A stretch of DNA of 24,249 nucleotides, from positions 1 to 24,249 of IMG/VR virus record IMGVR_UViG_3300026078_000087; one strand, written 5' to 3'. The first letter of the stretch is position 1, and every line of letters starts with the position of its first letter. The notes under the pieces were generated by a model. It ran no database searches. It had not been told where the DNA came from and saw nothing but the letters and a program-made list of their open reading frames with translations. This DNA is from a virus. Made by a program: the position numbers and the translations under genes. Positions 9,416-24,249 of the stretch are shown one piece after another.

Positions 9416-9417
9416 AC

Positions 9418-9669
9418 ATGGGAATGGCAGAACGCAGAAGGTTGCGGGAAGTCGTGGCCACGCTACGACAGAATCGCAGGACGCGCCTTGATCGCATGCC
9501 CGAGGAAACGGCGCAGGAGTACATCGACCATTACGACGCCTACGGATGGGAGCACTTCACGCGCGAACATTGCCCCGCGCATCTGTATACCGAGGTCGAG
9601 GCGCGGTTTATGGCGACGGCATACGTCGATTTCGCGCTATCTCAGAATGGGCTAAGGAGGGCGGCATGA
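9418..9669 (+). CDS. Hypothetical protein
   Basis: 83 aa from ATG 9418 with a strong Shine-Dalgarno (GGAGG in AGTGGAGGAAATTGAAC). It is charged, mostly helical, with an aromatic middle (DHYDAYGWEHFTREHC). No family recognised. It is the last gene before the first recoded gene, and its TGA overlaps that gene's ATG. Confidence 0.65.
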   Translation: MGMAERRRLREVVATLRQNRRTRLDRMPEETAQEYIDHYDAYGWEHFTREHCPAHLYTEVEARFMATAYVDFALSQNGLRRAA

Positions 9670-9968
9670 GACGCGCAGCGCGACGAGATACCAATCATGC
9701 CTAGATCGTTGCTGCACTACGCAGCCTTGGCGTACTCGTGATCGACACCGCCAGTGCTGGCGATGGCATGACGGATTTGGTCTGTATCTGGCGAGGTCGC
9801 GTGGAGCTAGTGGAAATAAAGGATGGTGAAAAATCAGCGTCGCGTCGAAAGCTGACACCAGCGCAGGTATTGCTACATGGCGAGGCATTGCAAAGGGGAT
9901 ACAAGATGCATGTTGTCGAATCGGTGGAGCAGGCGCTTGCGGTGTTTGGCGCGAGGGTTGCGGTATGA
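9666..9968 (+). CDS. VRR-type nuclease, recoded (1 internal TAG)
   Basis: Read with TAG as Gln, this is a 100-aa protein; the TAG is codon 13 (9702-9704). The fold matches the small VRR-NUC Holliday-junction resolvase family: an N-terminal helix (QIVAALRSLGVLVIDT), acidic DGMTDLVCIWRGRVELVEIKDG (D...E-x-K catalytic pattern) and a helix with KLTPAQVLLHGEAL. The N-terminal helix before the TAG is needed for the fold, so the TAG is read through or the protein fails. The next downstream in-frame ATG (or GTG 9738) would remove this helix. This is the first gene in the window to carry an in-frame TAG. Confidence 0.75.
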
Positions 9969-10318
9969 GCTATTGCCGTTGGTCGAGTGATGATTTTCAA
10001 TGTGATGTTTACGTCTACGAAGACTGCCGCGGCGGATTCACGACCCATGTTGCTGGGTCACGCCCGGTCTTCGCTGAGCCATTGCCTCCGAAAATTGATT
10101 CACGCACAGATTTCTCAGCGTGGTTTGCGCGTGGTGCTGTGGTGCGCAAGATGCTAAAAACTGCGGGACGGGAGTTCATCGATCTTCCCCATGATGGCGA
10201 AACATTCAACGACGCGACGGCGGCACTATGCGCTGATCGTCTCGAAACACTTCGGAGGATGGGCTACAACGTTCCGCAACGCGCGATCGATGCGCTGCGC
10301 GAGGAAGCCGCCGCATGA
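9965..10318 (+). CDS. Phage hypothetical protein (SYCRWSSDDFQCDVY type)
   Basis: 117 aa, ATGA overlap with the nuclease. It begins with MSYCRWSSDDFQCDVYVYED, a start seen in many small phage proteins of unknown function; then a soluble mixed alpha/beta domain and RRMGYNVPQRAIDALREEAA at the end. No TAG. Function unknown. Confidence 0.7.
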   Translation: MSYCRWSSDDFQCDVYVYEDCRGGFTTHVAGSRPVFAEPLPPKIDSRTDFSAWFARGAVVRKMLKTAGREFIDLPHDGETFNDATAALCADRLETLRRMGYNVPQRAIDALREEAAA

Positions 10319-10584
10319 TCTTCCTGCAAGACGGCCTGATCGAGTTCTGCATGTCCCAGGGCGCCAGCAGGGCGCTGGCGGCCGATTTGGCGAATGAGCT
10401 TGCCGATAAACTAGCGCGCGCGATTGAGACTGAGCGCCGAAATCAGAACATTGCCGATTTGTTCGCGCGGGGCAAAAGTTACGGCTATATCGCCAGAAAG
10501 GAGGGGTGCAGTAAATCGACTGCGCACGACGTAATCAAGAAAACGTTCGGAACTTAGATTCAATCCGAACGCCATACGCGATAA
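10315..10584 (+). CDS. Helix-turn-helix regulator (TAG at codon 81)
   Basis: Read to the TAA this is 89 aa; a TAG at 10555-10557 (codon 81) would instead end it at 80 aa. The N-terminal half is amphipathic helix (ALAADLANELADKLARAI). The C-terminal half is a Mor-like HTH (DLFARGKSYGYIARKEGCSK, STAHDVIKKTF). Mor and related proteins activate late or middle promoters. Because the HTH ends before the TAG, this is the one gene where TAG as a stop would still give a complete domain, so readthrough here is uncertain. Regulation of the late genes is a plausible role. Confidence 0.65.
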
Positions 10585-10593
10585 CCTGAAATT

Positions 10594-10779
10594 ATGGACA
10601 AACGTAAAAGTGGAAAATAGATCGGGATGCGCGGCGATATCTTGCCCGACGGCATTTGCCACGACCCGGACTGGATGGGCGGCTACGACGAGGCGCAGGA
10701 ACTGAATTTCGGTGAAGCGCCGCGCGGCATCCGATTGGAACGGCGACAACTTGAGGCGCTTGTTGAATACGGCGACTAA
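10594..10779 (+). CDS. Small hypothetical protein, recoded (TAG at codon 9)
   Basis: From ATG 10594 with TAG 10618-10620 read as Gln it encodes 61 aa, ending in TAA that overlaps the ATG of the HNH gene. An alternative start at ATG 10627 avoids the TAG and gives 50 aa. No family recognised; acidic, with GICHDPDWMGGYDEAQEL. Confidence 0.45.
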
Positions 10780-11276
10780 TGACAGAACACGCAGGTACAG
10801 CTTCAGGAGTTCCGGTGTATATGGAACACATATCCCAGCCAGACCCGGCCTGCGCCCCCGATTCGAAGTATCTGAGGTACAGAGAAGCAAATAGAGAGTT
10901 GCTGCGCGCCAAGTCTAGGCAGCGGTATGCCGAAAATCCCGAACGGCATCGCGCGTCAACTCTTGCATGGAAGATGGCAAATCTAGAGCGCCTGCGCAAG
11001 ATAAAAAGCGCATACCAGAAAGCAAACAAAGAAAAATGCGCTGCTGCTACTGCCGGGCGTAAGGCAATTAAAATGCATGCGTGCCCGTCATGGGCTGAAG
11101 CCGAGATTATAGAACTGATCTACTCCGAAGCCGCACATCGTGGTATGCATGTAGATCACATAATTCCCTTGTAGGGCAAAACGGTGTGCGGCCTCCATGT
11201 CCATACCAATATGTAGCTCCTAACAAAAATGCAAAACATTAGTAAGGGGAACAGGTTCACGCCATATGCGGCGTAA
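10779..11276 (+). CDS. HNH endonuclease, recoded (2 internal TAGs)
   Basis: Starting at ATG 10779 and reading TAG 11172-11174 (codon 132) and 11214-11216 (codon 146) as Gln gives a 165-aa protein ending in TAA. Its C-terminal domain then reads VDHIIPL-Q-GKTVCGLHVHTNM-Q-LL followed by N and K residues. That is the conserved DHIxPLxGxxVCGLHxxxNLQ motif of phage HNH endonucleases, where a Gln is normal at the position after N-x. Residues 30-105 are basic and helical (KYLRYREANRELLRAKSR), a typical DNA-binding stretch. Stopping at the first TAG would lose the second half of the nuclease motif. This is one of the strongest sites showing TAG means Gln. Confidence 0.88.
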
Positions 11277-11280
11277 ACAA

Positions 11281-11700
11281 ACATCGGCGGCAGCAGAACA
11301 TTAACGGCCAAATGGGTAGCACCCTCTGGCGGGGTCGGGAGACTGGCGCAAAGCTAGACGTAACCCTGAAAACCCGATGCTGTAAAGGTGGCGCGTCATC
11401 GTCCCGCCGATTTGTATAGGAAAGTCGGGAATTTGCGACATATCGCCGAAATGTGTATCGAAAACGGCGAAAGTTGAGCATTTCCAACTTGTGAATCGCG
11501 GGCACTGATTGTGGCCCGCAAACCCTCCCCCGGTAGGGCTCGGACAACCGGAAACTGTGTCGTAACAGTCCTCGCCGGGAGCTGACCCCGGCAACAATCC
11601 AAAGCTGATCGTCCATGCGGCGAAACAGTTACGGCCTCGCGAAATGCGGGGCTAGGAATTTGCGGAGTGCGCGGTGCTGACGCGCCAATCATGTGAGCGA
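11281..11700 (+). ncRNA. Candidate large structured phage RNA
   Basis: No convincing protein frame occurs here, but at least eight perfect hairpins are packed into about 370 nt. Examples: CCGATTT/AAAGTCGG (11407-11428), TCGCCG/CGGCGA (11443-11470), AAGTTG/CAACTT (11471-11490), GCGGGC/GCCCGC (11498-11519), ACTGT/ACAGT (11554-11569), CCGGG/CCCGG (11575-11591), GCCTCGC/GCGGGGC around a GAAAT loop (11634-11652) and GCGCG/CGCGC (11669-11685). Longer pairings such as GGCGGG/CCCGCC (11328-11408) and TCGGG/CCCGA (11335-11377) are possible. It lies just after an HNH gene and just before a tRNA-like element. Large phage RNAs of the GOLLD or ROOL kind occur in similar places near tRNAs; I cannot assign a class. 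Strand follows the flanking genes. Confidence 0.45.
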
Positions 11701-11716
11701 GACTGAAACGGGTGTC

Positions 11717-11820
11717 GGGTCAGGGCAGGTTTGCTGAGCGATGCGGTTCCGAATTTGTCGTTCTAGATAAGACATAGGCGGATAGCAGGACTCGCCGGTT
11801 CGATTCCGGTCTGATCCTAC
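11717..11820 (+). tRNA. tRNA-like element, possibly degenerate or nonstandard
   Basis: The 3' part is convincing: T-stem GCCGG, loop TTCGATT, CCGGT (11794-11810), followed by CTGATCC. That strand pairs with GGGTCAG at 11717-11723 over seven positions with one G-U. About 101 nt separate the acceptor ends, long even for a Ser/Leu-type tRNA. The middle holds TGTCGTTCTAGATAAGACA (11756-11774), an imperfect anticodon-like arm. Depending on pairing the anticodon would be TAG (Leu) or CTA (amber), with a mismatched stem. The D-arm is unclear. Could be a tRNA domain within the preceding ncRNA. Confidence 0.35.
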
Positions 11821-11835
11821 GTTCAATGTAAAACG

Positions 11836-11886
11836 CGGCGTTGATACCACGCCGATTGCCACAAAGCCGGAACTAACAGCACCGGC
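11836..11886 (+). other. Two hairpins in the 5' leader of the next gene
   Basis: CGGCGT/ACGCCG (11836-11841 with 11849-11854) and GCCGG/CCGGC (11866-11870 with 11882-11886) lie between the tRNA-like element and the GTG at 11923. Neither has a U-run, so they may be processing or structural elements rather than terminators. I see no clear promoter in 11887-11922. Confidence 0.35.
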
Positions 11887-11922
11887 CCGCAAATAAATTC
11901 AACCTTTCGCGGAGACGGCGAA

Positions 11923-12144
11923 GTGAGTAACCCAATGAAGGGCCTTGTGATCGCGATTGCGACCGAATGCCTAGTGAGCATCTTCTTTGCAGTCCTCAAG
12001 CTGACCGGATTTGTCGATTGGGGCTGGGCCATCGTGACATTGCCAATTTGGATAGGGCCAGTCTTCGCAATCGCCTTCGTTATCGCGGCGCTGGCGTTCT
12101 ATGGCATCCAGCATGCGCGGGGTGTGGATATCGATCGCGCATGA
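11923..12144 (+). CDS. Small membrane protein, two TM segments
   Basis: GTG start at 11923 preceded by GGAGACGG; 73 aa. Two hydrophobic segments, about residues 5-25 (GLVIAIATECLVSIFFAVLK) and 33-58 (WAIVTLPIWIGPVFAIAFVI), with a short polar tail. It is the first gene after the RNA block and overlaps the next by ATGA. It could be a holin-like or superinfection protein; no family is certain. Confidence 0.65.
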   Translation: MSNPMKGLVIAIATECLVSIFFAVLKLTGFVDWGWAIVTLPIWIGPVFAIAFVIAALAFYGIQHARGVDIDRA

Positions 12145-12584
12145 CGGCACACGTTCGCAAGTTCGAGACTGGTGCAACGCGCGATCTCGATGCCAGCAAG
12201 CTAGATTTCGAGGGCTTCCTAAGCCCGCTAGTGCTGGCTCGGTACGCCGAATACATGCACGCCAACCGCATGACCGCAGAAGGACTGCGCGAGAGCGACA
12301 ACTGGCAGCTTGGCATACCGAAATCGGCCTACATGAAGTCCGGCTGGCGCCATCATTTCGCATGGTGGTCAGCGCATCGCGGAGAGCCGACGCACGAGGA
12401 CATCGAAACCGCCATCTGTGGAGTTCTGTTCAACGCAAGCGGCTACTTGCACGAGATTCTAAAGGCACGAGGCGCGAGCATTGGAACGCAGATCCACGAT
12501 TCACAAATCGCGAAAGATTCTGCCGATGCTGCGGTCGCTGAATTGCTACCGCCGCAGCCTGCGACGATTGCGACGGATGACTAA
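12141..12584 (+). CDS. DUF5664-like protein (possible dATP/dGTP diphosphohydrolase)
   Basis: 147 aa from ATG 12141. It contains FETGATRDLDASKLDFEGFL, then LARYAEYMHANRM and MKSGWRHHFAWWSAHRG, which fits the DUF5664 family (also named dATP/dGTP diphosphohydrolase N-terminal domain) found in many phages. Members are predicted all-helical MazG-like pyrophosphohydrolases that would act on deoxynucleotides. The C-terminus is an unstructured Ala/Pro tail. The next gene, a metallophosphatase, may belong to the same nucleotide-handling module. Enzyme activity is inferred from the family name. Confidence 0.6.
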   Translation: MTAHVRKFETGATRDLDASKLDFEGFLSPLVLARYAEYMHANRMTAEGLRESDNWQLGIPKSAYMKSGWRHHFAWWSAHRGEPTHEDIETAICGVLFNASGYLHEILKARGASIGTQIHDSQIAKDSADAAVAELLPPQPATIATDD

Positions 12585-12587
12585 GGT

Positions 12588-13421
12588 TTGAGCACCCACT
12601 ACATCCTCCCGGACACGCAAGTGCGGCCGGGGGACATCACAGACCACCTCGACTGGATCGCGCAAGACATCGTGCGCCGCAAGCCTGATGTGCTCGTATG
12701 TCTCGGTGATTGGTGGGATTTACCGAGCCTTTCATCGCATGATGCGCCGGGCTCGGCGAAGAAAGAAAACGCGAGGTTCCGCGCTGATTTGGATGCGGGA
12801 CATGCCGCGATGGCACGGTTGATGGAGCCCATCGAAAAGGAACTATCGCGAATCCAGCGCCGCAAGATCAAGCGCTGGCCGCTGCGCCAGGTTTTCATAA
12901 CCGGAAATCACGAGAACCGAGCAGATCGAATTGCGGCGAATGACCCAGTACTGACAGGCGTAGTCGGTTCGCAGCTTTGCCGAGTCGAAGAGTTCGGTTT
13001 TGAGCGTCACGAGTTTCTAGCGCCCGTAGCAATTGATGGCGTGCATTACTCGCACTACTGGCAATCATCGCATAGCGCGCGACCAATCGGCGGAACGATC
13101 GACAATCGCTTGAACAAGCTCTGCGCAAGCTTCGTGTGCGGCCACGAGCAGGGTTTGAAGTACGGCAATCGACCATTGCCAATGGGCAAGACGGTTCACG
13201 GCATTGTTGCCGGATCGTGTTACCTGGGCGTTGAGGACTATCGCGGTCCACAAGCGCGCAACGAATGGCGCGGAACTGCGGTTCTGCATGACGTTCGCGA
13301 AGGTGACTTCGAGCCCATGTTCCTGACGCTGCGGTATTTGTGCAAGGAATATGCCGGTGAAGATCTGCATTCATACATGACGAGCCGCTATCCGGATCGA
13401 GACTGGGCACATCTGCAATGA
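12588..13421 (+). CDS. Calcineurin-like metallophosphatase
   Basis: TTG start at 12588, three nt after the upstream TAA; 277 aa. Metal-binding motifs in order: LPDTQV (D near residue 9), LGDWWD (near 42), FITGNHENR (about 105-113), and a late VCGHEQG (about 185) with YSHYWQ before it. The pattern D..GD..GNHE..H..GHE is that of the metallo-dependent phosphatase superfamily, acting on nucleotides or nucleic-acid ends. Substrate not determined. Encoded beside the DUF5664 gene. No TAG is present despite being in the late half. Confidence 0.85.
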   Translation: MSTHYILPDTQVRPGDITDHLDWIAQDIVRRKPDVLVCLGDWWDLPSLSSHDAPGSAKKENARFRADLDAGHAAMARLMEPIEKELSRIQRRKIKRWPLRQVFITGNHENRADRIAANDPVLTGVVGSQLCRVEEFGFERHEFLAPVAIDGVHYSHYWQSSHSARPIGGTIDNRLNKLCASFVCGHEQGLKYGNRPLPMGKTVHGIVAGSCYLGVEDYRGPQARNEWRGTAVLHDVREGDFEPMFLTLRYLCKEYAGEDLHSYMTSRYPDRDWAHLQ

Positions 13422-13669
13422 CCGAAGAAGCGGAAGCCGAGGAAGAGGGTCTGGGTGAGATCGAAATGTACGAACCCGTACTCGCGGAACTCCTCCCCGA
13501 AGGCGGCCTAATCTTCGACGTGATCGAATTCGCTGAACTGACAAACTCCATTGCAGCACAGATGCGCGATGGCCAAATTTTCGTACTGGACCGGGATTCG
13601 CGCACATGGCGAAGCGTTGAGCCAGAAAAAACCAAGGGCGCAAAGCTTGCCGCCGTGAAGAGGGAGTAA
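13418..13669 (+). CDS. Small acidic hypothetical protein
   Basis: 83 aa in an ATGA overlap with the phosphatase. It has a very acidic start (TEEAEAEEEGLGEIE), a middle IFDVIEFAELTNSIAAQMRDG and a basic end. No family recognised; sits immediately before the lysis genes. Confidence 0.6.
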   Translation: MTEEAEAEEEGLGEIEMYEPVLAELLPEGGLIFDVIEFAELTNSIAAQMRDGQIFVLDRDSRTWRSVEPEKTKGAKLAAVKRE

Positions 13670-13676
13670 CAGGGGA

Positions 13677-13889
13677 ATGCAGTAGATTTCTGACCATCCG
13701 ATGGCCGCCGATGCGGTGAAGATCGTCCCATTCGCGGGCATCTCTGCTGCAAATTTCTTCGGCATGAGTGTGCCGGATGCAATCAACTACGTGACCCTGT
13801 TTTGCGGTATCTGCTATGCGCTTTCTTGGTGCTGGCGAGGCTATGTTTTCGCCCGCGACAAGAAGTACCTGCCTGAGCACGAAGATTAA
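13677..13889 (+). CDS. Holin, recoded (TAG at codon 3)
   Basis: 70 aa from ATG 13677 with TAG 13683-13685 as the third codon (M-Q-TAG-I-S). A GAGGGAG Shine-Dalgarno at 13660-13666 sits 10 nt upstream of this ATG. The only later ATG (13701) has no Shine-Dalgarno, so the TAG is probably read. The protein has hydrophobic segments around residues 14-28 and 36-52 (DAINYVTLFCGICYALSWCW), then RDKKYLPEHED. Size, membrane segments and place just before the endolysin fit a small holin that triggers lysis by opening the inner membrane. A TAG at position 3 would block essentially all holin synthesis until suppressor tRNA is active. Confidence 0.75.
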
Positions 13890-13893
13890 GCGC

Positions 13894-14385
13894 GTGTCAT
13901 TCAACACCCGAATCGCAACCATCTTTGCCGGCGCCGCGCTCGCGATTGCGGGCACGATGGCGACGCAGCATGAGGGTACGCGCTACGAGGCGTATTAGGA
14001 CGTTGGCGGCGTGTGGACGATCTGTGAGGGCGATACGCACGGCGTAAAGGCTGGCGATATAGCGACGCGCCAAGAGTGTGACCAAAGGCTGCGCGCCAAT
14101 CTCGTCAATGCGAACGACGCTTTTGACCGCTGCGTATTTGAGCCGGTGAGTGTTTTCGAGAGAGCGGCTGGTATCGATTTTATTTTCAATGTCGGCTCGG
14201 GGAATTTCTGCAGATCCACGCTCGTCAAAAAACTCAATCTCGGCGACCACAAGGGCGCCTGCGACGAGCTGCTGAAATGGGTCTACGTGGACGGCAAGGA
14301 CTGCCGCATCGCAGCCAGCAATTGCTACGGCATTGTGAAGCGCCGGCAGGCTGAGCACGACCTTTGCCTACAAGGCATCCAATGA
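13894..14385 (+). CDS. Lysozyme (GH24, SAR endolysin), recoded (TAG at codon 35)
   Basis: GTG start at 13894; 163 aa read through TAG 13996-13998. The start MSFNTRIATIFAGAALAIAG is a weakly hydrophobic signal-anchor-release segment, so the enzyme may be exported without a holin. The catalytic set is E27-x8-D36-x5-T42 (TQHEGTRYEAY-Q-DVGGVWTI), identical in spacing to T4 lysozyme (E11, D20, T26). The recoded codon lies exactly between E27 and D36, so only readthrough as one residue preserves the active site. The enzyme cuts peptidoglycan N-acetylmuramyl bonds. A downstream Cys pair (DGKDC, SNC) may form disulfides. Neighbours are holin and spanins. Confidence 0.93.
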
Positions 14386-14558
14386 AATGGTTCGCGCTAC
14401 TGCTTGGCCTACTGCTCGCGGTTGCGATCTACACCATCGCTGAGCAAGACGAGCAATACGTACAGATGCGCAACTACGCGATCAAAGCAACGATCAAAAA
14501 CAAGATCCAAGGTGACGCGCTGGCCACATGTCAGCGGTATACGTGGAAGAGTACGTGA
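14382..14558 (+). CDS. Small membrane protein in the lysis cassette
   Basis: 58 aa, ATGA overlap with the lysozyme. Residues 1-20 (MKWFALLLGLLLAVAIYTIA) are a signal peptide or single TM segment; the rest is polar with DEQYVQMRNY. May be a lysis regulator, antiholin or spanin helper. Its TGA overlaps the next ATG. Confidence 0.6.
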   Translation: MKWFALLLGLLLAVAIYTIAEQDEQYVQMRNYAIKATIKNKIQGDALATCQRYTWKST

Positions 14559-14710
14559 TGAGCGAATTCGCCTTTTGGCTGGCTGACCCGATCTTTCGCA
14601 TCAATGCGGGTCTAGCGGCATGCTGGGACTTGTATCTTGACGCCCTATTGGAAGAGATGGAGGGCATGTTGAATCCGAATCTTCCCGCGCCGGAGGATGG
14701 CTGGTGCTGA
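14558..14710 (+). CDS. Small lysis-cassette protein
   Basis: 50 aa, start overlapping the preceding TGA (TGATG). Hydrophobic-amphipathic (FAFWLADPIFRINAGLAACWDLYLDALLEEME). No family recognised. Confidence 0.45.
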   Translation: MSEFAFWLADPIFRINAGLAACWDLYLDALLEEMEGMLNPNLPAPEDGWC

Positions 14711-14955
14711 CCGCATTTCTCGTTAAGGCCAAAGGCTGGGCAATCGGCATCGGTGCCATTCTGTTGGCTGTGTTCATGGCGATCATCCTCGCCTTCCGCA
14801 AGGGATCGAACGCGGCAACCGCCAGCATCGAGGCGACCCAAACGCGCGCAGTGAATGACGCGCTGGTGAAGCAGACTGAGATTGTTGCCGAAACCCATAG
14901 CCTGCCATAGGGCGAGGCGCTCACGGAGTTGAAGAAGAAATGGGCGCGCGATTGA
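14704..14955 (+). CDS. Rz: Rz-like inner-membrane spanin, recoded (TAG at codon 69)
   Basis: GTG start; 83 aa read through TAG 14908-14910. N-terminal TM segment at about residues 10-32 (KGWAIGIGAILLAVFMAIIL) is followed by a helical periplasmic region (ASIEATQTRAVNDALVKQTE) and, after the TAG, GEALTELKKKWARD. This is the inner-membrane spanin layout. The TAG separates the last 14 residues, the part usually contacting Rz1, from the rest. The coding region then overlaps the start of the Rz1-like gene by 16 nt, as in classic nested or overlapping Rz/Rz1 pairs, an overlap that exists only if TAG is read. Confidence 0.8.
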
Positions 14956-15164
14956 GAATCATCGTCAAAGCGGCAACGTTCGTTGCTCTGGCGGCAACAC
15001 TCGCAGGATGCAATCTGTTGCCAGTGCGCACGGTCCATGATTATTGCCAATTGGCGCACCCTCTGCGTGTGTGCGAGTCGGATCAAATGTGCGACCCGCT
15101 GGCTAAGGACATCCTTGCGCACAACGAGACAGGCGAAAGGGTATGCGGGAAGAAGTGGAAATGA
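14940..15164 (+). CDS. Rz1: Rz1-like outer-membrane spanin lipoprotein
   Basis: 74 aa. The signal peptide ends in a lipobox, LAATLAGC (Cys near residue 22), so the protein should be lipidated and anchored in the outer membrane. It overlaps the end of the Rz-like gene in another frame, the classic Rz/Rz1 arrangement. The mature part is Cys-rich (CQLAHPLRVCESDQMCD) and lacks the Pro-rich segment of lambda Rz1. Together the two proteins would fuse inner and outer membrane in the last step of lysis. Confidence 0.75.
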   Translation: MGARLRIIVKAATFVALAATLAGCNLLPVRTVHDYCQLAHPLRVCESDQMCDPLAKDILAHNETGERVCGKKWK

Positions 15165-15343
15165 ATCCCGAGATCGTCTACGGCGGCAGTTTCGTTCTTC
15201 ACTGCGCAGGAAATAAGCCGCATATCAGGAAATTCGGCCCGTTTTGGTTGTGCTCGCTGGGGCTGGATTTTTGCATGGATTTCACACCAGCGACCGCATT
15301 CCGTTCTCTCATTACACTGATCCAGAAAGACGGTACGTGGTAA
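15161..15343 (+). CDS. Small hypothetical protein
   Basis: 60 aa from ATG 15161 (ATGA overlap with the Rz1-like gene). Contains hydrophobic stretches GPFWLCSLGLDFCMDF and ATAFRSLITLIQ, so possibly membrane-associated. No family recognised. Confidence 0.5.
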   Translation: MNPEIVYGGSFVLHCAGNKPHIRKFGPFWLCSLGLDFCMDFTPATAFRSLITLIQKDGTW

Positions 15344-15386
15344 GCGCATAAACGGCAGATATTCGATTCACGCATGAGGGAGACAA

Positions 15387-15542
15387 ATGCAAATCATCGC
15401 GGGATTCTTCGGAGTTATATCGTTCCTGTTCGCATACGCCGAGTTCCGGGGACTTAGCAGAACCTCCCCTTCGACGGTGGGGATTTTGTGGATTGTCAAT
15501 GGACTGGCTCTGCTCTTGCCGATATTTGGGCCACAAGCGTGA
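15387..15542 (+). CDS. Small two-TM membrane protein
   Basis: 51 aa. A strong Shine-Dalgarno (GAGGGAGA) precedes ATG 15387. Two hydrophobic segments, residues 2-19 (QIIAGFFGVISFLFAYAE) and 31-48 (VGILWIVNGLALLLPIFG). Could be a second holin or antiholin near the lysis genes. Confidence 0.6.
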   Translation: MQIIAGFFGVISFLFAYAEFRGLSRTSPSTVGILWIVNGLALLLPIFGPQA

Positions 15543-15562
15543 GTGACAAAACGGGCTGGTAA

Positions 15563-15802
15563 ATGAGTCGCACGAAACGCAGCGAGCCGACAAGCGGGTG
15601 CTGGATGCGAATTCCGAAGGGTAAGAAGTCCGAACGCAAGCGCCTAGAGCGCATCGCTGACGACTACGGCGACGAGGGGATTGTGCAGCATAGGCAGCGC
15701 AAGGCGCTCCCTCCCGATGCGTGGGACGACTTGCCGATCAGCTATACGCGCGGTCAGCCTTGGCAACGAGTGGTGAAGTCGAAATGGCAGAAGGTCAATT
15801 GA
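15563..15802 (+). CDS. Small basic hypothetical protein
   Basis: 79 aa, rich in Lys and Arg (SERKRLERIADDYGDEG). Contains SGCWMRIPKGKK near the start. No family recognised; TGA is followed directly by the next ATG. Confidence 0.5.
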   Translation: MSRTKRSEPTSGCWMRIPKGKKSERKRLERIADDYGDEGIVQHRQRKALPPDAWDDLPISYTRGQPWQRVVKSKWQKVN

Positions 15803-15955
15803 ATGACAGCCACCGTTTTACTAATCGCCATTGGTGCCATGTTTCTACTTGAGACCGCGAAGCTGTACGTGAACGACAAGGACATTTCGGACGGCGCCGG
15901 TTGCCTTTGTATCGCCGCAGGTTTGCTGCTTGGCGCGTTGGAGATCATGGCTTGA
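15803..15955 (+). CDS. Small membrane protein
   Basis: 50 aa with two hydrophobic segments (TATVLLIAIGAMFLLETAKL and CLCIAAGLLLGALEIMA). Translated directly after the previous gene. Unknown role. Confidence 0.5.
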   Translation: MTATVLLIAIGAMFLLETAKLYVNDKDISDGAGCLCIAAGLLLGALEIMA

Positions 15956-15966
15956 GTTCCGAATAG

Positions 15967-16299
15967 ATGCCAGATCCGCAGGAATCCGCCGAGATTGCAA
16001 TCGAATCACTCGGCCATCGCGTCGCATCGATCTACGATCCGCAACGCGGCGTGCTCAAGCTGTTTATTGACCAGCCCGAGTGGATGACGCCGGCAAGCTT
16101 GGAAAGGGCGGATGACGATTATAGGGCACGCGCAGTGCGGCCAAGTGACGAGAAGCAAATACGCAAGGCGGCTCGATGGTTCACGCAATTGTACGCGCTC
16201 ACGAATCCGCAGTTCAAGCGCGTCCTAACCGCCGGCGAGTGCCGCGAACAGTATGTCGACTATTACGCAAAGGTCGTCATGCACGGAATGCGGAAATGA
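15967..16299 (+). CDS. Hypothetical protein
   Basis: 110 aa from ATG 15967. It begins PDPQESAEIAIESLG and has a helical C-terminal half (KAARWFTQLYALTNPQFKR). In the same frame an upstream TTG at 15952 overlaps the previous TGA (TTGA) and is separated only by one TAG (15964-15966); under the recoded reading the protein could start there as MSSEQMPD, with GGAG about 9 nt upstream. Family unknown. Confidence 0.55.
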   Translation: MPDPQESAEIAIESLGHRVASIYDPQRGVLKLFIDQPEWMTPASLERADDDYRARAVRPSDEKQIRKAARWFTQLYALTNPQFKRVLTAGECREQYVDYYAKVVMHGMRK

Positions 16300-16505
16300 A
16301 TCCGCTACAGGTGATCGACGAACGCTAGGCCGACTTGTGCGGCCAGTACGCGAACGAAGGCGTAGCGGCATTCCTGATTCGCACGACCGAGGACGGGAAC
16401 TGCCGAATCATCGGGCCACAGTTCGACCCGCAGACCATCGCGAACATGCTTAGAACGGCTGCGCAGGTCTACCTCGACCAGGTGCCGCCGATGAAGACGA
16501 ATTGA
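16296..16505 (+). CDS. Hypothetical protein, recoded (TAG at codon 11)
   Basis: 69 aa from ATG 16296 (ATGA overlap) with TAG 16326-16328 read as Gln. After the TAG the frame is open for 58 codons (ADLCGQYANEGVAAFLIRTT), ending in TGA directly before the tRNA cluster. Good frame continuity and the start in an overlap support a real gene. Family unknown. Confidence 0.6.
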
Positions 16506-16511
16506 TAATTC

Positions 16512-16580: not shown

Positions 16581-16585
16581 TCATT

Positions 16586-16663
16586 CAGGGGTTAGTTCAG
16601 TCTGGCCAGAGTCCTCGCTTTGGAGGCGAGTTGTCGAAGGTTCGAATTCTTCACCCCTGACCA
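16586..16663 (+). tRNA. tRNA-Pro(TGG)
   Basis: Acceptor CAGGGGT/ACCCCTG, anticodon arm CTCGC TTTGGAG GCGAG giving anticodon TGG (reads CCA), T-arm GAAGG TTCGAAT TCTTC, encoded CCA. All canonical. Confidence 0.93.
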
Positions 16664-16671
16664 TTTCAAAC

Positions 16672-16757
16672 GCGCCGTTGGCGAAATTGGTAGACGCACC
16701 GTCCTTAGAAGTCGGCGCCTCACTGGCATGGGAGTTCAAGTCTCTCACGGCGTACCA
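16672..16757 (+). tRNA. tRNA-Leu(TAG)
   Basis: Type II tRNA with acceptor GCGCCGT/ACGGCGT, anticodon loop CTTAGAA (anticodon TAG, codon CUA), long variable arm, T-arm GGGAG TTCAAGT CTCTC and encoded CCA. The anticodon stem has one U-U mismatch. Note this TAG is an anticodon for Leu, not a UAG reader. Confidence 0.9.
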
Positions 16758-16762
16758 AATAT

Positions 16763-16847
16763 GGAAACGTGGCCGAGTGGCCGAAGGCGGCGGGTTGCTA
16801 ACCCGTAGATCGGCAACGATCCGTAGGTTCGACTCCTAACGTTTCCG
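16763..16847 (+). tRNA. tRNA-Ser(GCT)
   Basis: Type II tRNA: acceptor GGAAACG/CGTTTCC, D-arm GGCCGAGTGGCCGAAGGC, anticodon arm GCGGG TTGCTAA CCCGT giving GCT (codons AGC/AGU), long variable arm, discriminator G. CCA is not encoded. Confidence 0.92.
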
Positions 16848-16859
16848 CAGAAAAATTGT

Positions 16860-16934
16860 TGCCCCGTGGCGTAACGGTAGCGTATCTGCCTCTACAGCAG
16901 AGGGTGTCAGTTCGATTCTAGACCGGGGCTGCCA
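16860..16934 (+). tRNA. Amber suppressor tRNA, anticodon CTA (reads UAG)
   Basis: The anticodon arm is a perfect TCTGC-CTCTACA-GCAGA, so anticodon CTA at 16892-16894 reads UAG. Canonical positions check: U8, A14, G18G19, A21, U33, and T-loop TTCGATT. D-stem GCGT/GCGT-type pairs include two wobbles. The T-stem GTCAG/CTAGAC needs one bulged A (16920) or contains mismatches. The acceptor stem pairs GCCCCG with CGGGGC, leaving an open U1-U72 position if the tRNA starts at T16860, then discriminator G and encoded CCA. An unpaired 1-72, G73 and U35 resemble glutamine tRNA identity, in line with Gln at the TAG sites. It lies between tRNA-Ser and tRNA-Gln(TTG). Confidence 0.95.
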
Positions 16935-16939
16935 AATCT

Positions 16940-17014
16940 TGCGACATCGCCAAGTGGTAAGGCATCGGTCTTTGACACCGACATCCGCAGGTTCGATCCC
17001 TGCTGTCGCTACCA
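16940..17014 (+). tRNA. tRNA-Gln(TTG)
   Basis: Anticodon arm TCGGT CTTTGAC ACCGA gives TTG (codon CAA). D-arm GCCAAGTGGTAAGGC and T-arm GCAGG TTCGATC CCTGC are canonical. Acceptor GCGACA/TGTCGC with U1-U72 unpaired, the same open pair as in the amber tRNA next to it; discriminator A and encoded CCA. Confidence 0.92.
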
Positions 17015-17030
17015 CATTTCGAGAGAAGAC

Positions 17031-17216: not shown

Positions 17217-17306
17217 ATAGGGGCGCGAGGAACATGACATGCCAAGCATGCGCCAAGCGCAGATAGTGGATGCTGGATAAGGTCAAATAGGTTTGGAGGC
17301 TGATAA

Positions 17307-17594: not shown

Positions 17595-17604
17595 GCAAAC
17601 AAGA

Positions 17605-17910
17605 ATGAATAAGTGGGGCAAAGGCAGAGGCGGTAGACCGTGGCGCAGGCTGGTCGATCAGGTAAAGGCCCGTGACAAATATATCTGCCAGTCATGCGGA
17701 CGCCTCACGGAAGATGGTGATTGCGATCACGCAATACCAACGTCCAAGGGCGGCAAGACAGAGCTGGCTAATCTCCAATGGCTATGCAGAGAGCCATGCC
17801 ATAGGCTGAAGACCGAGAAAGAGGCCGCTGAATCGCAAGGCCATAAACTCAAAGCGCGAATTGATGCGAATGGGTGGCCGACCGGGGCGGGCGGGTCGAA
17901 ACTTTTGTGA
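17605..17910 (+). CDS. HNH endonuclease (terminase-associated)
   Basis: 101 aa. HNH motifs: CQSCGR knuckle (about residues 29-34), DCDHAIPTSKGGKTELANLQWLC-type core and HRLKTEKEA at the end. A single HNH gene just upstream of the terminase small subunit is common in HK97-like phages with cohesive ends, where it can assist DNA packaging. Function in packaging is inferred from this position. No TAG. Confidence 0.85.
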   Translation: MNKWGKGRGGRPWRRLVDQVKARDKYICQSCGRLTEDGDCDHAIPTSKGGKTELANLQWLCREPCHRLKTEKEAAESQGHKLKARIDANGWPTGAGGSKLL

Positions 17911-17918
17911 ACAAGGTT

Positions 17919-17945
17919 GGACACCGTGTCCGGCTTCTGTTTTTT
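17919..17945 (+). terminator. Weak hairpin plus U-run between HNH and terminase
   Basis: GGACA/TGTCC with loop CCG (17919-17931), then GGCTTCTG and a run of six T (17940-17945). The eight-base gap makes terminator action weak; it could also be part of the packaging site. Low confidence. Confidence 0.3.
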
Positions 17946-17986
17946 CCCATCCACAATTGGTCGAATGACCGAAAAAGCAACAGATC

Positions 17987-18379
17987 ATGGCAAGACCAAG
18001 ACTTCCCCAGGCCAAGGCTGAGGCATCTGGCGCGATCCTGAAGAACGCAGGCCGATTCGCTGGCCGATCCGCCCAGAAACATGCCCGACCTATCGGCGAG
18101 CCATACGCCCGAATGACGGACGAGCAGAAGGCATGCTGGCATGAATTCGTCGGGGACATGCCATGGTTGAACGCAGCGCATCGCACGTTGTTGCGGCTTG
18201 CCTGCTACCACGCGGCTAGGTTAGATATAGATGCCGAATTCGGAGTATCGGCCACGCAGGCGCTGAGTTCGATCCTTTCAAAGCTCGGCGCAACTCCGGT
18301 GGACGAAACCAAGGTAACGCATGGTGGCGCAGACGACGACGAAGACCCGGCAGAAGAGTTCTTCTCTCGCGCGCATTAA
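17987..18379 (+). CDS. terS: Terminase small subunit
   Basis: 130 aa. It shows the P27-like small terminase pattern: a Gly/Pro start, then YARMTDEQKACWHEFVGDMP, LNAAHRTLLRLACYHAARLD and ALSSILSKLGATPVDETKV. Small terminase binds the packaging site and hands DNA to the large subunit. It overlaps the large-subunit start by 59 nt. No in-frame TAG, while the adjacent large subunit has one. Confidence 0.8.
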   Translation: MARPRLPQAKAEASGAILKNAGRFAGRSAQKHARPIGEPYARMTDEQKACWHEFVGDMPWLNAAHRTLLRLACYHAARLDIDAEFGVSATQALSSILSKLGATPVDETKVTHGGADDDEDPAEEFFSRAH

Positions 18380-20165
18380 CGCCTATGCCGAAGGCGTGCT
18401 ATCTGGATAGATCGTCGCCGGCCCGCATGTCCGCAATACTTGCCGGCGTCATTTCGATGATCTGAAAAGCGGCTCGGATCGCGGGTTATGGTTTGACGAG
18501 GAAGCCGCCGAACTTGTGTTCGGGTTCTTCGAGAACGTTCTGAGGCTATCCGAGGGCCAGTTTGAAGGATTGCCTTTTGAGCTTCAGCCGGCGCAGGCAT
18601 TCATCGTGGGGAGTTTGTTCGGATGGAAGCGTGCAGATGGCACGCGTCGGTTTCGCCGGGCATATATTGAGCAGGGGAAGGGGAACGGAAAATCGCCGAT
18701 GGCCGGCGGCATCGGACTATTCGGAATGCTTGGTGATGGCGAGGCGGGATCGCAGGTTTATGCGGCCGCCGCGAAGCGAGAGCAAGCCGGAATCCTATTC
18801 GCCGATGCTGTGAAGATGGTTCGCGCGTCGCCCGCGCTACTCAGGCGCGTCGAGTTCAGCGGCGGTGTAGGACGTGAATACAATATGGCGCATCACAAGT
18901 CCGGAAGCTTCTTCCGGCCGGTGTCGCGCGATACTGGCAAGTCGGGTTCCGGCCCGCGCCCGTACTTCGTTCTAGCGGACGAGGTGCATGAACTGCCAGA
19001 CGGCAAGATTCTGGAAATGCTGGAACGCGGCTTCAAGTTCCGACGCCAGCCGCTCATGTTCATGATTACAAATAGCGGGTCAGATCGGAATTCGATTTGC
19101 TGGGCTGAACACGAATGGGCGATCAAGGTTGCGGCGGGAAATATCGATGCAGTGACCGACACAACCTATATTGGAGATGTGCTTGACGATTCGACCTTCT
19201 CCTATGTTTGTGCTTTAGATGAATCCGACGATCCGTTAAACGATCCGTCATGCTGGGCCAAGGCAAACCCCTTGCTCGGCGTGACGATCACCGAGGACTA
19301 TCTTTCCAGTGTAGTCGCGCAGGCAAAGAACATCCCCGCGAAACAAAATGGAATTCTCCGGCTGCACTTCTGCATGTGGACGGATGCAGACGCGGCATGG
19401 ATGAGCCGCGAAGTAGTGGAACCGCTTTTGACGGACTTCGATATTGCCGAGCATCATGGGAAAGATGTGTTTCTCGGACTTGACCTTTCGCAGAACCGCG
19501 ATATCACGGCGATGGGTGCGGTGGTAAGGACTGGCGAGACGGCGGAAGGCAAGCCAACGTTTGACGCGTGGATTGAAGCTTGGACACCTGGTGACACTGT
19601 GCAGGCCAGAGCCGATCGCGACAAGATGGAATATCTTCCGGTATGGGTTAAGCAAGGCCACATCCACGCCCCGCCCGGAGAGTCGATCAGCTATCGTCAT
19701 GTCGCGCAAACGATGGTCGAGTACGAACAGGATTACAGCGTGCGAATGGTGGCGTATGACCGTTACGCATTTCGCAGGTTCGAGGATGATGCAACTGAGC
19801 TTGGGCTGAGCGTCAATTTCGTCGAGCATCCACAGGGCGGCATACGTAAGGCAAAGCCAACGCAGGAAATGACCGATGCCGCAAAGCGGATTGGCAAAGA
19901 GGCAGAAGGGCTTTGGTTTCCTGGTTCGTTGCGCATGCTTGAGGATGCGATGCTTGAGGGCCGAATTCGGCTCAAGCGCAATCCGGTGCTGGTAAGCGCG
20001 ATCATGTCGGCCGTTACCGAGAGCGACAAGTGGGATAACAAGTGGCTGGCGAAGCAAAAGTCAGTCAATAAGATCGATGCGGCAATAGCTCTAACGATGG
20101 CTTTCGGCGCGGCGAATGCACTTCAAGCCGAATCAAACAAGAAATTCCAGATGTTCATATTGTGA
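18321..20165 (+). CDS. terL: Terminase large subunit, recoded (TAG at codon 30)
   Basis: ATG 18321 (59 nt inside terS) read through TAG 18408-18410 gives 614 aa. The recoded region reads NAYAEGVLSG-Q-IVAGPHVRNTCRRH, the standard start of HK97-type large terminases (Y-A-x2-V-x2-G-x-I-V). A Walker A-like QGKGNGKS lies at about 118-125 and a Walker B-like VLADEVHEL near 216. The C-terminal nuclease domain has LGLDLSQNRDITAMG (about 384) and MVAYDRYAFRRF. It packages phage DNA into the prohead by ATP hydrolysis and cuts it. Starting after the TAG would lose the N-terminal linker. Confidence 0.95.
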
Positions 20166-20172
20166 GAAAGAC

Positions 20173-20787
20173 ATGACAGATAATCTCCGCGCCTATTCGG
20201 TTTTCCAGGTCAAAGCCATTGATGCCGCGAAGCGCACGTTTACGGGCTTGGCGACAACGCCGGCCGTTGATCGCGTTGGCGATACCATCGATCCGCTTGG
20301 GGCGACCTTTCAAAATCCTGTCACGCTACTTCACCAGCATGAACATGACGAGCCGATTGGCTAGGCCATTTTTGGCAAGCCGACCGCGAAGGGTATTCCG
20401 TTCACTGCAACAATCCCGCAGACCGATACATTGCCGGATTGCGAGCTGAAGGATCGATTGGATACCGCATGGGGCGAAATTGAGCTAGGTATTGTTCGCG
20501 CCGTTAGCATCGGCTTCCGGCCGCTGAAGTATGCGTTCAACGATAACGGCGGCGTCGAATATCAAGAGTATGAGGTATATGAGCTTAGCCCTGTCTCTGT
20601 GCCATGCAACCAGGAAGCCATCATCACATCCATTAAAACAATGGACAAAGCTCTATCCCGCGATGTCGTAGATAAGCTGAAACAATTCGACAGCGCTCCG
20701 GCGAAAGTCCAGAAACACATCAAGCATGCAATCCCGTTAGTAACGGGTGCGCGAATTCCGAAGGGCGCGGTTTCGCTCAAGAAATAA
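20173..20787 (+). CDS. Prohead (HK97-like) protease, recoded (TAG at codon 64)
   Basis: 204 aa from ATG 20173 with TAG 20362-20364 read as Gln. The HK97 prohead protease pattern is present: TGLATTPAVDRVGDTIDP, catalytic His region LLHQHEHDEPIG-Q-AIFG, and the catalytic Ser in RAVSIGFRP (S112), then VYELSPVSVP. The Gln follows H-D-x-P-I-G, where families have a short strand after the His. A stop here would leave only the His without Ser. It trims the capsid delta domain during maturation. Basic C-terminal tail. Confidence 0.93.
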
Positions 20788-20803
20788 TTCATACGCGGAC
20801 ATC

Positions 20804-20824
20804 GCCCCCCTTTGCTGCGGGGGC
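20804..20824 (+). other. GC hairpin between protease and capsid genes
   Basis: GCCCCC (20804-20809) pairs with GGGGGC (20819-20824). No U-run follows; may act as an RNA processing or stability element just ahead of the highly expressed capsid gene. Confidence 0.35.
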
Positions 20825-20859
20825 CACAAGGCCGCAAACCAACTAAAAGGAAATTCAAC

Positions 20860-22293
20860 ATGGCAGGTAAGACGTTTGCAGAGCAGATTGCCGATCTCAA
20901 GGCGACTCGCGAGAGCAAGACCAATGAAATGAACGCCTTCGCTTAGAAGTCGTTGGATGAGAATCGTTCGATGGATGAGGCCGAGGCCGAGGCTTTCGAC
21001 ACTCTCGAAAATGAAATCAAGCGCATTGACGGCGATATCGCTCGCCTGACGCGTCTTGAGAAGATCAACGCCGAGAAGGCCGTGCCGGTTGCTGGCTTGA
21101 AACCGGAAGATGCGATCAAGGCCCGCGAGGGCGTGACGGTCAAGAATACGCAGAAGCTTGAGCCGGGCGTCGAGTTTGCCCGTTATGCGATGTGTCTGGC
21201 TGCGGCCAAGGGTGACGTCGGTCGCGCGTTCAACATCGCTAAGAGCCAGATCCCGCAAACCGATCGTGTCGTCAATGCGTTGAAGTTCCAGGCCGAAACA
21301 GGCCAGAGCTTTGAAGCGCTTATCAAGTCCAACGTCAACGCCGGCACGACCACGGATGCGACCTGGGCCTCGCCGCTCGTCAACTATCAGATTTTCACGG
21401 CTGACTTCGTCGAATATCTGCGTCCGCAAACCATCGTTGGCAAGTTCGGTCAGGGTGCGATTCCATCGCTGCGTAATATCCCGTTCAATGTCCGAATTGC
21501 TGGTCAGACTTCGGGCGGCGCGGGCTACTGGGTTGGTCAGGGCGCGCCGAAACCGCTCACCAAATTTGATTACAACGCGACGAATCTGACCTGGGCCAAG
21601 GTGGCCGCGATCTCGGTCATCACGGATGAACTGATCCGCTTCAGCAATCCGTCTGCCGAGGCGCTTGTACGCAATGGCTTGGTGGATGCACTGCGCGAAC
21701 GTCTGGATATCGACTTCATCGATCCGGGTAAGGCCGCGGTTGCGAATGTTTCTCCGGCGTCGATCACCAATGGTGTTGCGGCAATCAGCTCCAGCGGTTC
21801 GGATGAAGCGCATGTCCGCGCTGACCTTCGCGCTCTCTGGGCGCCGTTCATTGCGGCGAACATCGCCCCGACTACTGCGGTCTACATCATGTCTTCGACT
21901 ACGGCCCTTGCCCTGTCGCTCATGGTCAATGCCCTGGGTCAGCGCGCGTTCCCAGACATTTCGATGAACGGTGGCACGCTGCTCGGTATTCCGGTCATTG
22001 TGTCGGAATACGCAAAGAACACGGGCGGTTCCGCTGGCGGCCTCGTCATCTTGGCGAACGCTTCGGATATCTGGCTGGCAGATGACGGCGGCTTCACTCT
22101 GGATGCGAGCCGTGAGGCTTCGCTGCAGATGGACGATGCGCCGAGCGTCAATAGCGCCACCGGCACCGAATCGCAGCTCGTCTCGATGTTCCAGACGAAC
22201 AGCGTGGCTCTGCGTGCGGAGCGTTTCATCAACTGGCAGAAGCGTCGCAGCGCTGCCGTGTCGTATCTCGACGCGGTGACCTGGGGTAGCTGA
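20860..22293 (+). CDS. Major capsid protein (HK97 fold), recoded (TAG at codon 29)
   Basis: ATG 20860 with AAGGA upstream gives 477 aa read through TAG 20944-20946. The N-terminal 100 residues are the helical delta/scaffold region (EQIADLKATRESKTNEMNAF-Q-KSLDENRSMDEAEAEAFD), cleaved by the protease. The body carries HK97 features: LKFQAETGQSFEALIK, FGQGAIPSLRNIPFNVR, GYWVGQGAPKPLTKFD, TKFDYNATNLTWAKVAAI, VNALGQRAFPDI and the late LFQ-type VSMFQTNSVALRAERFINW. Termination at the TAG would leave 28 aa of scaffold. The most abundant phage protein thus depends on UAG decoding. Confidence 0.95.
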
Positions 22294-22306
22294 GTAAGTT
22301 GAATTG

Positions 22307-22337
22307 GGTGCGGCTCCTAACGGGGCCGCACCATTTT
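22307..22337 (+). terminator. Intrinsic terminator/attenuator after the capsid gene
   Basis: An 11-bp stem GGTGCGGCTCC/GGGGCCGCACC (one G-U) with the tetraloop TAAC spans 22307-22332 and is followed by ATTTT. It lies just after the capsid gene. Partial termination would make capsid transcripts more abundant than those of downstream genes. Confidence 0.7.
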
Positions 22338-22346
22338 GGAGGGATG

Positions 22347-22652
22347 ATGAGCAGAGTTCCAATAAAAATTACTCGTGCGTTTCGCGGTAATGCGGTTGGC
22401 AGCGAAATGCGGGTTTCGGCGCACGAGGCGCGGTTTCTTGTGCTATCCAATCACGCGCAATACATCACCACGGCATTGACGCCGGAGAAGCCGCCAGTTG
22501 CTGTTGCGGTAGTCGATACGGTCGCCGAATCGGCGGAAGTTGCCGAAGAGACTAATGCCGGCAGCGAAGAAGAATCCGATGGCGTCGAAATCTCGCCGCG
22601 CACCGGCCTTCCTAAGCGGCAATATCGCCGTCGCGATTTGACTGCGGAGTGA
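22347..22652 (+). CDS. Hypothetical head protein
   Basis: 101 aa from the second of two ATGs (22347), four bases after GGAGG. The N-terminal half is a small beta domain (SRVPIKITRAFRGNAVGSEM), then an acidic Ala/Glu-rich linker and a basic tail (LPKRQYRRRDLTAE). Such proteins often follow the capsid gene. Function unknown; may be a decoration or connector-associated protein. Confidence 0.6.
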   Translation: MSRVPIKITRAFRGNAVGSEMRVSAHEARFLVLSNHAQYITTALTPEKPPVAVAVVDTVAESAEVAEETNAGSEEESDGVEISPRTGLPKRQYRRRDLTAE

Positions 22653-22873
22653 AGATGAAGGTGATCTGCGGCTATGCTTTGGCGTTTGCTGCGCAAGTGC
22701 GCCGCATTGCCCTATCGCCGATTACTTGGGTGCTCGCCCTTTTCGTGGCTGGCGGCGCACAAATCACGCACGGCATCGCACTCGCTGCCGGAGTTCCTTA
22801 TGGCTGGATTTGTGCTGGCCTATTTTGCCTCGCCATGGCGTATTTGATCGTAAGAGGCGTGCGGAATGCCTGA
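22649..22873 (+). CDS. Small membrane protein
   Basis: 74 aa from GTG 22649 (GTGA overlap) or 72 aa from ATG 22655. Two or three hydrophobic segments (VICGYALAFAAQVRRIAL, ITWVLALFVAGGAQ, GWICAGLFCLAMAYLIV). It overlaps the portal start by 8 nt. Unknown role. Confidence 0.5.
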   Translation: MKMKVICGYALAFAAQVRRIALSPITWVLALFVAGGAQITHGIALAAGVPYGWICAGLFCLAMAYLIVRGVRNA

Positions 22874-24249
22874 CATTTTTCAAGCGCTTGGCGGGCTGGT
22901 GAAGTCCGTACCGGGTAGCCTATAGTCGGTCGATAGTCGCGGCTGGCTCCCGCTTGTGCGCGAACCATTTCCCGGCGCATGGCAACAAAACGCATCGCAG
23001 ACGGTAGATGGACAATTGTCCTACTACGCGGCATATGCATGCGTCACATTGATTTCAAATGACTTCGGTAAATTGCGTCCTCGCCTTGTCGAAAAACGCG
23101 GGAACATCTGGAAGGAAACGACGAGTTCGGCATTTTCGCCAGTCATTCGCAAACCGAATCGCTATCAGAACCATATCCAGTTTAAGGAATGGTGGGCGAT
23201 GAGCAAGTTGGTTTTCGGAAATACGTATGCCCTGCTTGAGCGCGATGCTCGCGGCATCGTGGTTCAGCAATACATTCTCGATGCTCGCCGCGTTTTGCCA
23301 CTCGTTGCGCCAGATGGCCAGGTCTACTATCAGCTTCACACGGATAACCTTTCCGGTGTTACGGAAGAAATCCTAGTTCCGGCATCAGAGATCATCCATG
23401 ACCGGATGAACTGTCTGTTTCATCCGCTGGTCGGCATCTCGCCGCTATACGCTGCCGGCGTACCTTCGGCGCAGGGTATCGCGATCCAGAATTCCAGCCG
23501 TAGTTTTTTTGCGAATGGTGCGCGTCCATCTGGCGTGCTGACTGCGCCCGGTCAAATCGGCCAGGAAACCGCTGACCGCCTGAAGCTGGCATGGGAAGAA
23601 AAATTTACCGGTGTGAATTCCGGCAAGATCGCCGTACTCGGCGATGGCTTGAAGTATGAACCGATGGTCATGACGAGCGCCGATGCGCAACTCATCGAAT
23701 AGTTGAAAATGACCGCGGAAATGGTCTGCGCCGCCTTCCATGTTCCAGCGTTCAAGGTGGGTATCGGCCAGATGCCGACCTATCAAAATGGGGAAGTACT
23801 GAATCAGATCTATTATTCGGACTGCCTGCAATCTTTGATCGAGGAATACGAGATTTGTCAGGATGAAGGGCTTGGTATTGGCGAGGCGGTCACTATCAAC
23901 GGGCGCAGCACACAACTAGGCGTTGACCTCGACTTGCGCGGTCTGTTCCGCATGGATACGGCGACATAGATGCGCACGCTTGGCGAGGGGGTGAAAGGTT
24001 CCATCCTGACCGTCAACGAAGCGCGCGAGGAGATGGATCGCGACAAGATTGCCGGCGGTGATACGGTATATATGCAGCAGCAGAACTTTAGCCTCGAAGC
24101 GCTCGCCAAGCGCGATTCCCTGCCCAATCCATTTGTCATCGATCGTCCGACCGCAAACCCCGACCCATCTGTTAGCGGGCCTCCGGCGAACGCCGATCCG
24201 AACCAAGACCAGGCGACCGGAAAGGCTTTCGCCTATGACGTGCAAAAAG
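22866..24249 (+). CDS. Portal protein, recoded (3 internal TAGs), 3' end outside window
   Basis: ATG 22866 opens a frame that continues to the window edge (461 codons) when TAGs at 22923-22925, 23700-23702 and 23967-23969 (codons 20, 279, 368) are read as Gln. It shows HK97-like portal features: YYAAYACVTLISNDFGKLRP, WWAMSKLVFGNTYALLER, VPASEIIHDRMN, LVGISPLYAAG, FFANGARPSGVL, then SADAQLIE-Q-LKMTAEMVCAAFHVP and RMDTAT-Q-MRTLGEGVKG. The DAQxxE-x-x-K-x5-I/V-x3-F-x-V-P segment is a highly conserved portal motif, and its continuity across the TAG is decisive. The portal forms the DNA channel and joins head to tail. Order after capsid is unusual but seen. Confidence 0.95.

Follow-up and report, generated by a model that had tools for sequence, protein, structure and literature searches.

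Probable reading of UAG as glutamine in the late genes of a compact temperate-type phage with its own suppressor tRNA

The linear virus record IMGVR_UViG_3300026078_000087 (IMG/VR; 24,249 bases, hereafter the window) very probably belongs to a temperate-type phage of lambda-like organisation with an HK97-type head, which—judged from its sequence and those of its relatives—encodes a CUA suppressor transfer RNA (tRNA) and uses it to translate UAG as glutamine in the late genes. Genes were identified from protein family matches (PHROG and other family searches), and 12 of them, cut by the standard code, become continuous once TAG is read as a residue (Table 1).

In-frame TAG codons and the residue they encode

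An earlier note on this DNA, made from the sequence without database searches, had claimed 15 in-frame TAGs in 12 genes. All 15 were located, from position 9702 onward, and the capsid and portal residues given there (29; 20, 279 and 368) match exactly. TGA or TAA terminators, as claimed, hold for every recoded gene whose end lies inside the window, the portal gene running off it; counted over all late-gene terminators within the window, TGA is used 20 times, TAA 10 times and TAG not at all. Eleven of the 15 TAGs are clearly internal. A sixteenth, at 15455, was set aside, as a rival open reading frame at 15387–15542 is more gene-like there.

The distribution of these codons is strongly uneven. 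The early genes contain no TAG in 2,657 codons, the late genes 16 in 4,396 (with 15455 counted; Fisher p ~0.001), and the chance of finding none in the early genes at the late rate is 6e-5. The counterpart early genes of three relatives—G001, G002 and G004—are likewise devoid of internal TAG. The earlier note had described a reassigned code of the table 15 kind. This holds for TAG-to-glutamine in the late region and fails as a genome-wide description, since genes before ~9.7 kb use the standard code; the TAG in a repressor-like gene of G001, which seems to be a stop, points in the same direction.

The identity of the residue was assessed by comparison with orthologues at at least 60% identity. 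The exchange partners of TAG at orthologous sites are glutamine codons (CAG/CAA) at 12, glutamate at three, threonine at two, and serine and aspartate at one site each, whereby the helix-turn-helix (HTH) protein pair giving one threonine and the serine probably reflects an alignment shift. As TAG and CAG are separated by a single transition, the two-step CAA–TAG exchanges, found at portal positions 23268, 23688, 23700 and 23967, weigh more. Individual columns can be very pronounced: glutamine occupies portal residue 279 in 130 of 134 homologues and residue 146 of the HNH protein in 22 of 23. A score over 20 candidate residues, calculated from the same alignments, places glutamine first (+18.8), glutamate second (+8.6) and all others below zero. 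In the controls, ordinary glutamine sites score 20–59, and the median for glutamate sites is 6. Sites with TAG hence lie at the lower edge of the ordinary glutamine range, which suggests a slight preference of UAG for positions more tolerant than the average. The alignment of homologues proposed in the earlier note thus returns glutamine as the commonest partner and the best of 20 residues, and the pooled columns—far from being random and non-conserved—are glutamine-like well beyond any other residue. The interpretation of late-region TAG as glutamine is supported by these comparisons.

The suppressor tRNA and the proposed explanation

The earlier account, otherwise sound in its TAG-to-glutamine reading, left out the CUA tRNA of the late region, which we propose as the cause of the recoding. 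The glutaminyl-tRNA synthetase (GlnRS) of Escherichia coli recognises G73, U35, G10, G2–C71, an open or weak 1–72 pair and G3–C70. By sequence reading, the tRNA of the window bears U1·U72, G2–C71, G10, U35 and G73, that is, every listed determinant but G3–C70. Its cloverleaf is ordinary: the acceptor and D stems are separated by two bases, the D loop contains GG, and the anticodon stem is 5 bp long. The same sequence recurs identically in L135 and L232; in L232 the adjoining protein is only 54% identical to that of the window while the tRNA is identical over its full length, which argues that the tRNA behaves as a unit, whether by maintenance or by exchange. In G001, G002 and G004, a CUA tRNA occupies the same slot—after Pro, Leu and Ser tRNAs—and is unrelated in sequence to that of the window. 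Read in the same way, it shows G2–C71, G3–C70, G10, U35, G73 and an open C1·C72, and meets all GlnRS determinants. That two tRNAs without sequence relationship bear the same glutamine-type marks in a shared slot is good evidence for their function. Compared with named phages, the suppressor tRNAs gave short partial matches only.

The mechanism that we consider most likely combines these elements as follows. Early and lysogeny genes would be read in the ordinary code of the host, which would explain why internal UAG is avoided in them. The suppressor tRNA, sited in the late region, is presumably cotranscribed with the late genes and would be charged with glutamine by the host, either directly by GlnRS or by glutamyl-tRNA synthetase together with GatCAB. 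It would then compete with, and outcompete, release factor 1 (RF1) at UAG, so that its build-up would yield full-length lysis, packaging and head proteins from the UAG-containing genes. We infer from the early–late split that full-length late proteins would be delayed, appearing only after the suppressor tRNA has accumulated.

A number of features weigh against this explanation or parts of it. Four of the 15 TAGs (10555, 10618, 13683 and 14908) lie near gene ends and are weaker sites: that at 14908 stands 14 codons before the end of its gene, and those at 13683 (codon 3) and 10618 (codon 9) are followed by a nearby ATG that might be the true start. Portal residue 20, protease residue 64 and terminase residue 30 fall in variable columns where the homologues do not carry glutamine. 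The window tRNA has C3–G70 where E. coli GlnRS favours G3–C70, and one bulged A in its T stem. Finally, the four TAG-bearing genes at 9666–11276 lie at a long distance from the tRNA and upstream of a noncoding block; a single late operon therefore does not fully account for the timing, and the border of the recoded region need not coincide with the border of such an operon.

Three rival explanations have to be weighed. That the TAGs arose from sequencing errors or reflect the decay of a prophage is a general possibility for metagenomic contigs and nothing more; here its probability is negligible. Many of the TAGs are also present in relatives from other metagenomes, in independent assemblies, which excludes sequencing error, and the ratio of nonsynonymous to synonymous substitution rates (dN/dS), taken over the sequence that follows the TAGs, lies mostly at 0.04–0.14—a strong purifying selection that excludes pseudogenes. 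In addition, the frames are otherwise intact and the CUA tRNA is present. Very unlikely, too, is leaky amber readthrough or host suppression, in which UAG would remain mainly a stop and give two products without reassignment. RF1 is presumably still present, and the repressor-like gene of G001 appears to stop at TAG, both of which would fit such a situation. However, internal TAGs occur in structural genes that are essential—three in the portal gene, 19 in a tail gene of G001—and mostly truncated products of these would be lethal; moreover, the late genes ending within the window use TGA or TAA, and the phage supplies its own CUA tRNA.

The remaining rival, which we consider highly improbable, accepts the recoding and lets the CUA tRNA insert another residue: glutamate, lysine, serine, tyrosine, tryptophan or pyrrolysine. 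Glutamate is the second-best residue and is found in relatives at terminase residue 30 and Rz residue 69, yet glutamine is ahead of it by ~10 nats and of all other residues by more than 30, with 12 sites at which glutamine is the exchange partner. Among identity elements, G73 speaks against tyrosine, lysine and leucine, and a short variable arm against serine. ARAGORN labels the window tRNA Pyl. This label follows from the anticodon, and pyrrolysine was rejected because the shape of the tRNA is ordinary: the hallmarks of tRNA-Pyl are a single base separating the acceptor from the D stem, an anticodon stem of 6 bp and a short variable arm, plus a pylS gene. No match to pylS occurred among the proteins scanned, no search being aimed at it. 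Glutamine insertion by the phage-borne suppressor hence stays the preferred explanation.

A further idea concerns the lysis–lysogeny decision. The repressor-like gene of G001 is identical over the 156 residues present in the window and reaches a TAG at codon 168, past the window start. It appears to end there, the other reading being a readthrough for 22 more codons; as G001 holds the only relative of this repressor among the viral contigs, the TAG terminator comes from one sequence. UAG may thus have two meanings in one genome. One could imagine that in the lysogen the repressor-like gene stops at UAG and late proteins are blocked, and that the suppressor, once made, lengthens the repressor at its C terminus and gives access to the late genes, which would help to make the switch one-way, while the permuted transfer-messenger RNA (tmRNA) of some relatives clears ribosomes that the altered code has disturbed. 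We regard this scenario as unlikely.

Gene order, relatives and neighbouring elements

Table 1 Features of the window, with in-frame TAG codons of the recoded genes
Feature	Position	Strand	In-frame TAG	Remarks
Repressor-like gene	3..470	-		Truncated by window start; weak PHROG matches
Early genes, standard code	1714..9669	+	0	
Endonuclease/Holliday junction resolvase-like	9666..9968	+	9702 (residue 13)	PHROG 93, 5702
HTH protein	10315..10584	+	10555 (residue 81)	Weak site, 8 codons before end
Small protein	10594..10779	+	10618 (codon 9)	Weak site; TAG also in G001, G002, G004
Endonuclease VII-like HNH protein	10779..11276	+	11172 (residue 132), 11214 (residue 146)	
Holin	13677..13889	+	13683 (codon 3)	Weak site; PHROG 920
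Endolysin (Phage_lysozyme)	13894..14385	+	13996 (residue 35)	CAG in G001, G002, G004
Rz-like spanin	14704..14955	+	14908 (residue 69)	Relatives GAA; PHROG 1026
Small protein	16296..16505	+	16326 (residue 11)	CAA in L232 (DNA read by eye)
tRNA cluster Pro(UGG), Leu(UAG), Ser(GCU), CUA suppressor, Gln(UUG)	16586..17014	+		In late region
Suppressor tRNA, anticodon CUA	16860..16934 (ARAGORN 16861-16930)	+		CCA encoded; Rfam tRNA 35.2 bits
Terminase large subunit	18321..20165	+	18408 (residue 30)	Homologues Glu or basic
Prohead protease (Peptidase_S78)	20173..20787	+	20362 (residue 64)	CAG in G003
HK97-type major capsid protein	20860..22293	+	20944 (residue 29)	
HK97-type portal	22866..24249	+	22923, 23700, 23967 (residues 20, 279, 368)	Continues past window end

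The early region encodes an O-like replication protein, DnaB, a SpoU methylase, a helicase, a DNA methylase with an intein, a RecA-dependent nuclease and a NinB-like protein. The SpoU-family RNA 2'-O-methyltransferase (4087–4542) is 85–95% conserved in G001, G002 and G004 and might act on tRNA, the suppressor included. The intein in the DNA methylase gene spans 6838–7845, a stretch that is absent from the aligned G001, G004, G007 and L232.

The closest view beyond the window is given by G001 (56,420 bases, read as L186–L188), which is collinear with it. There, RecT and SSB are encoded together with an integrase whose arm-binding domain is of the lambda type, all free of internal TAG, and the tail genes are rich in TAG, with 19 in one frame of 1,572 codons. 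The markers of a temperate life style are distributed over two sequences: the repressor-like gene at the left end of the window, and integrase, RecT and SSB in G001 only, in the region beyond it. The lysogeny region of G001 (L188:8255-9514) also bears long overlapping open frames built from short repeats that are numerous and almost identical to each other (VAARRAVG units, minus strand).

Only 15 entries, the window included, show any TAG in the head genes (portal, capsid, protease, terminase and the small gene between them); the other homologous loci in the comparison, well over 100, are free of in-frame TAG there. Nine recoded rows group together in a portal tree, in a clade of 100% support, and L026 and L040 are placed elsewhere. 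The recoding trait is clade-specific, not noise. L026 and L040 show 50–59% identity in the head genes and several in-frame TAGs in them, and no suppressor tRNA was found in their available stretches; by their position in the tree they may mark separate origins of recoding.

The terminase module (17987–20165) has a different history. Its large terminase is 75–84% identical to those of standard-code contigs and 25% identical to that of G001, despite capsids that are 98% identical between the window and G001. The swapped terminase already carries a TAG, at residue 30, where relatives at 79–84% identity mostly have glutamate. A host search with the portal against a genome collection returned only relatives of 41–63% identity, mostly from Proteobacteria, and the methylase or capsid compared with samples of three bacterial groups gave nothing close. 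The nearest named relatives by sequence infect Proteobacteria, Stenotrophomonas and rhizobia among them.

The long noncoding block of 11277–11922 separates the HNH gene from the late genes that follow it; a search among named phages found no relatives of the block. Conservation in G001, G002 and G004 is good over ~200 bases of it (11283–11490) and includes several compensatory pair changes. This part, which is without a match in Rfam, possibly forms a structured RNA. The same block carries a permuted tmRNA in G001 (L187:14169-14600, minus strand) and G004 (L193:12084-12515, plus strand), with the tag ANDDSYMPMAQAA and a TAA end. No tmRNA was found when sought in the block of the window. At 11717–11825 it holds a tRNA-like remnant—a 7-bp acceptor-like pairing around a T-arm-like GGTTCGATTCCGG—in which no tRNA or tmRNA was called.

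Comparison with known recoded phages

Late-gene recoding of the code-15 type is already known in phages, mostly those of the gut. In crAss-like phages, TAG is read as glutamine in late genes with a suppressor tRNA (PMC7886860), and glutamine at TAG has been proven by peptides (PMC9523058). Common to these phages (PMC7886860) and the window are TAG as glutamine mainly in late genes, a phage suppressor tRNA and the standard code elsewhere. However, crAss-like phages are large Bacteroidetes gut phages, whereas the window represents a compact HK97-head, integrase-type lineage with named relatives on Proteobacteria. Among code-15 phages, 52.4% encode a Sup-CTA tRNA (Cook et al. 2024, PMC11210395), and a wider survey of recoding, by Borges et al. 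2022, is cited in PMC13059738. With the recoded phages of these surveys, the window shares the Sup-CTA tRNA, code 15 and the recoding of structural and lysis genes. The surveys cover gut catalogues and cultured phages. A distinct trait of the clade of the window is the alternation of two suppressor tRNAs, unrelated to each other, in a single slot. Recoding outside the gut has been described for cold-seep viruses (PMC10504277).

Suppressor tRNAs linked to theta ribozymes (PMC10879173) are likewise part of a phage tRNA cluster under code 15. For the present tRNAs, a theta ribozyme—hepatitis delta virus-like and located at the tRNA 3' end—was rejected as judged from spacing alone, no motif search being made: the next gene begins no more than ~10–20 bases past the 3' end (tRNA-Gln in the window, a coding gene in G001 and G002), which leaves no room for it. 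Homologous portal, capsid and/or terminase genes are also found in viral contigs such as L010–L012, there without internal TAG in the head genes, and in named phages such as Stenotrophomonas phage SOVA965 and Rhizobium phage RHph_X2_26, which were matched by similarity alone.

For annotation, these findings imply that standard gene calling would split portal, capsid, protease, terminase and lysozyme of the recoded clade. They extend late-gene UAG recoding to a compact integrase-type lineage with named relatives on culturable Proteobacteria; a culturable member would allow a laboratory test of the proposed role, a delay of lysis until the suppressor tRNA is present.

The recoding can also be seen in motion here, in the TAG of a terminase with standard-code relatives and in the unrelated suppressor tRNAs that sister phages carry in the same slot. 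A phage has been described that gained a TAG suppressor and then began collecting TAGs in conserved genes, the terminase among them (PMC7886860), and the terminase of the window, with its TAG at a position where relatives mostly bear glutamate, resembles this case. What is new in comparison with the known systems is the compact temperate-type lineage with its proteobacterial-type relatives, its choice of two suppressor tRNAs for one slot and, in two relatives, a permuted tmRNA.

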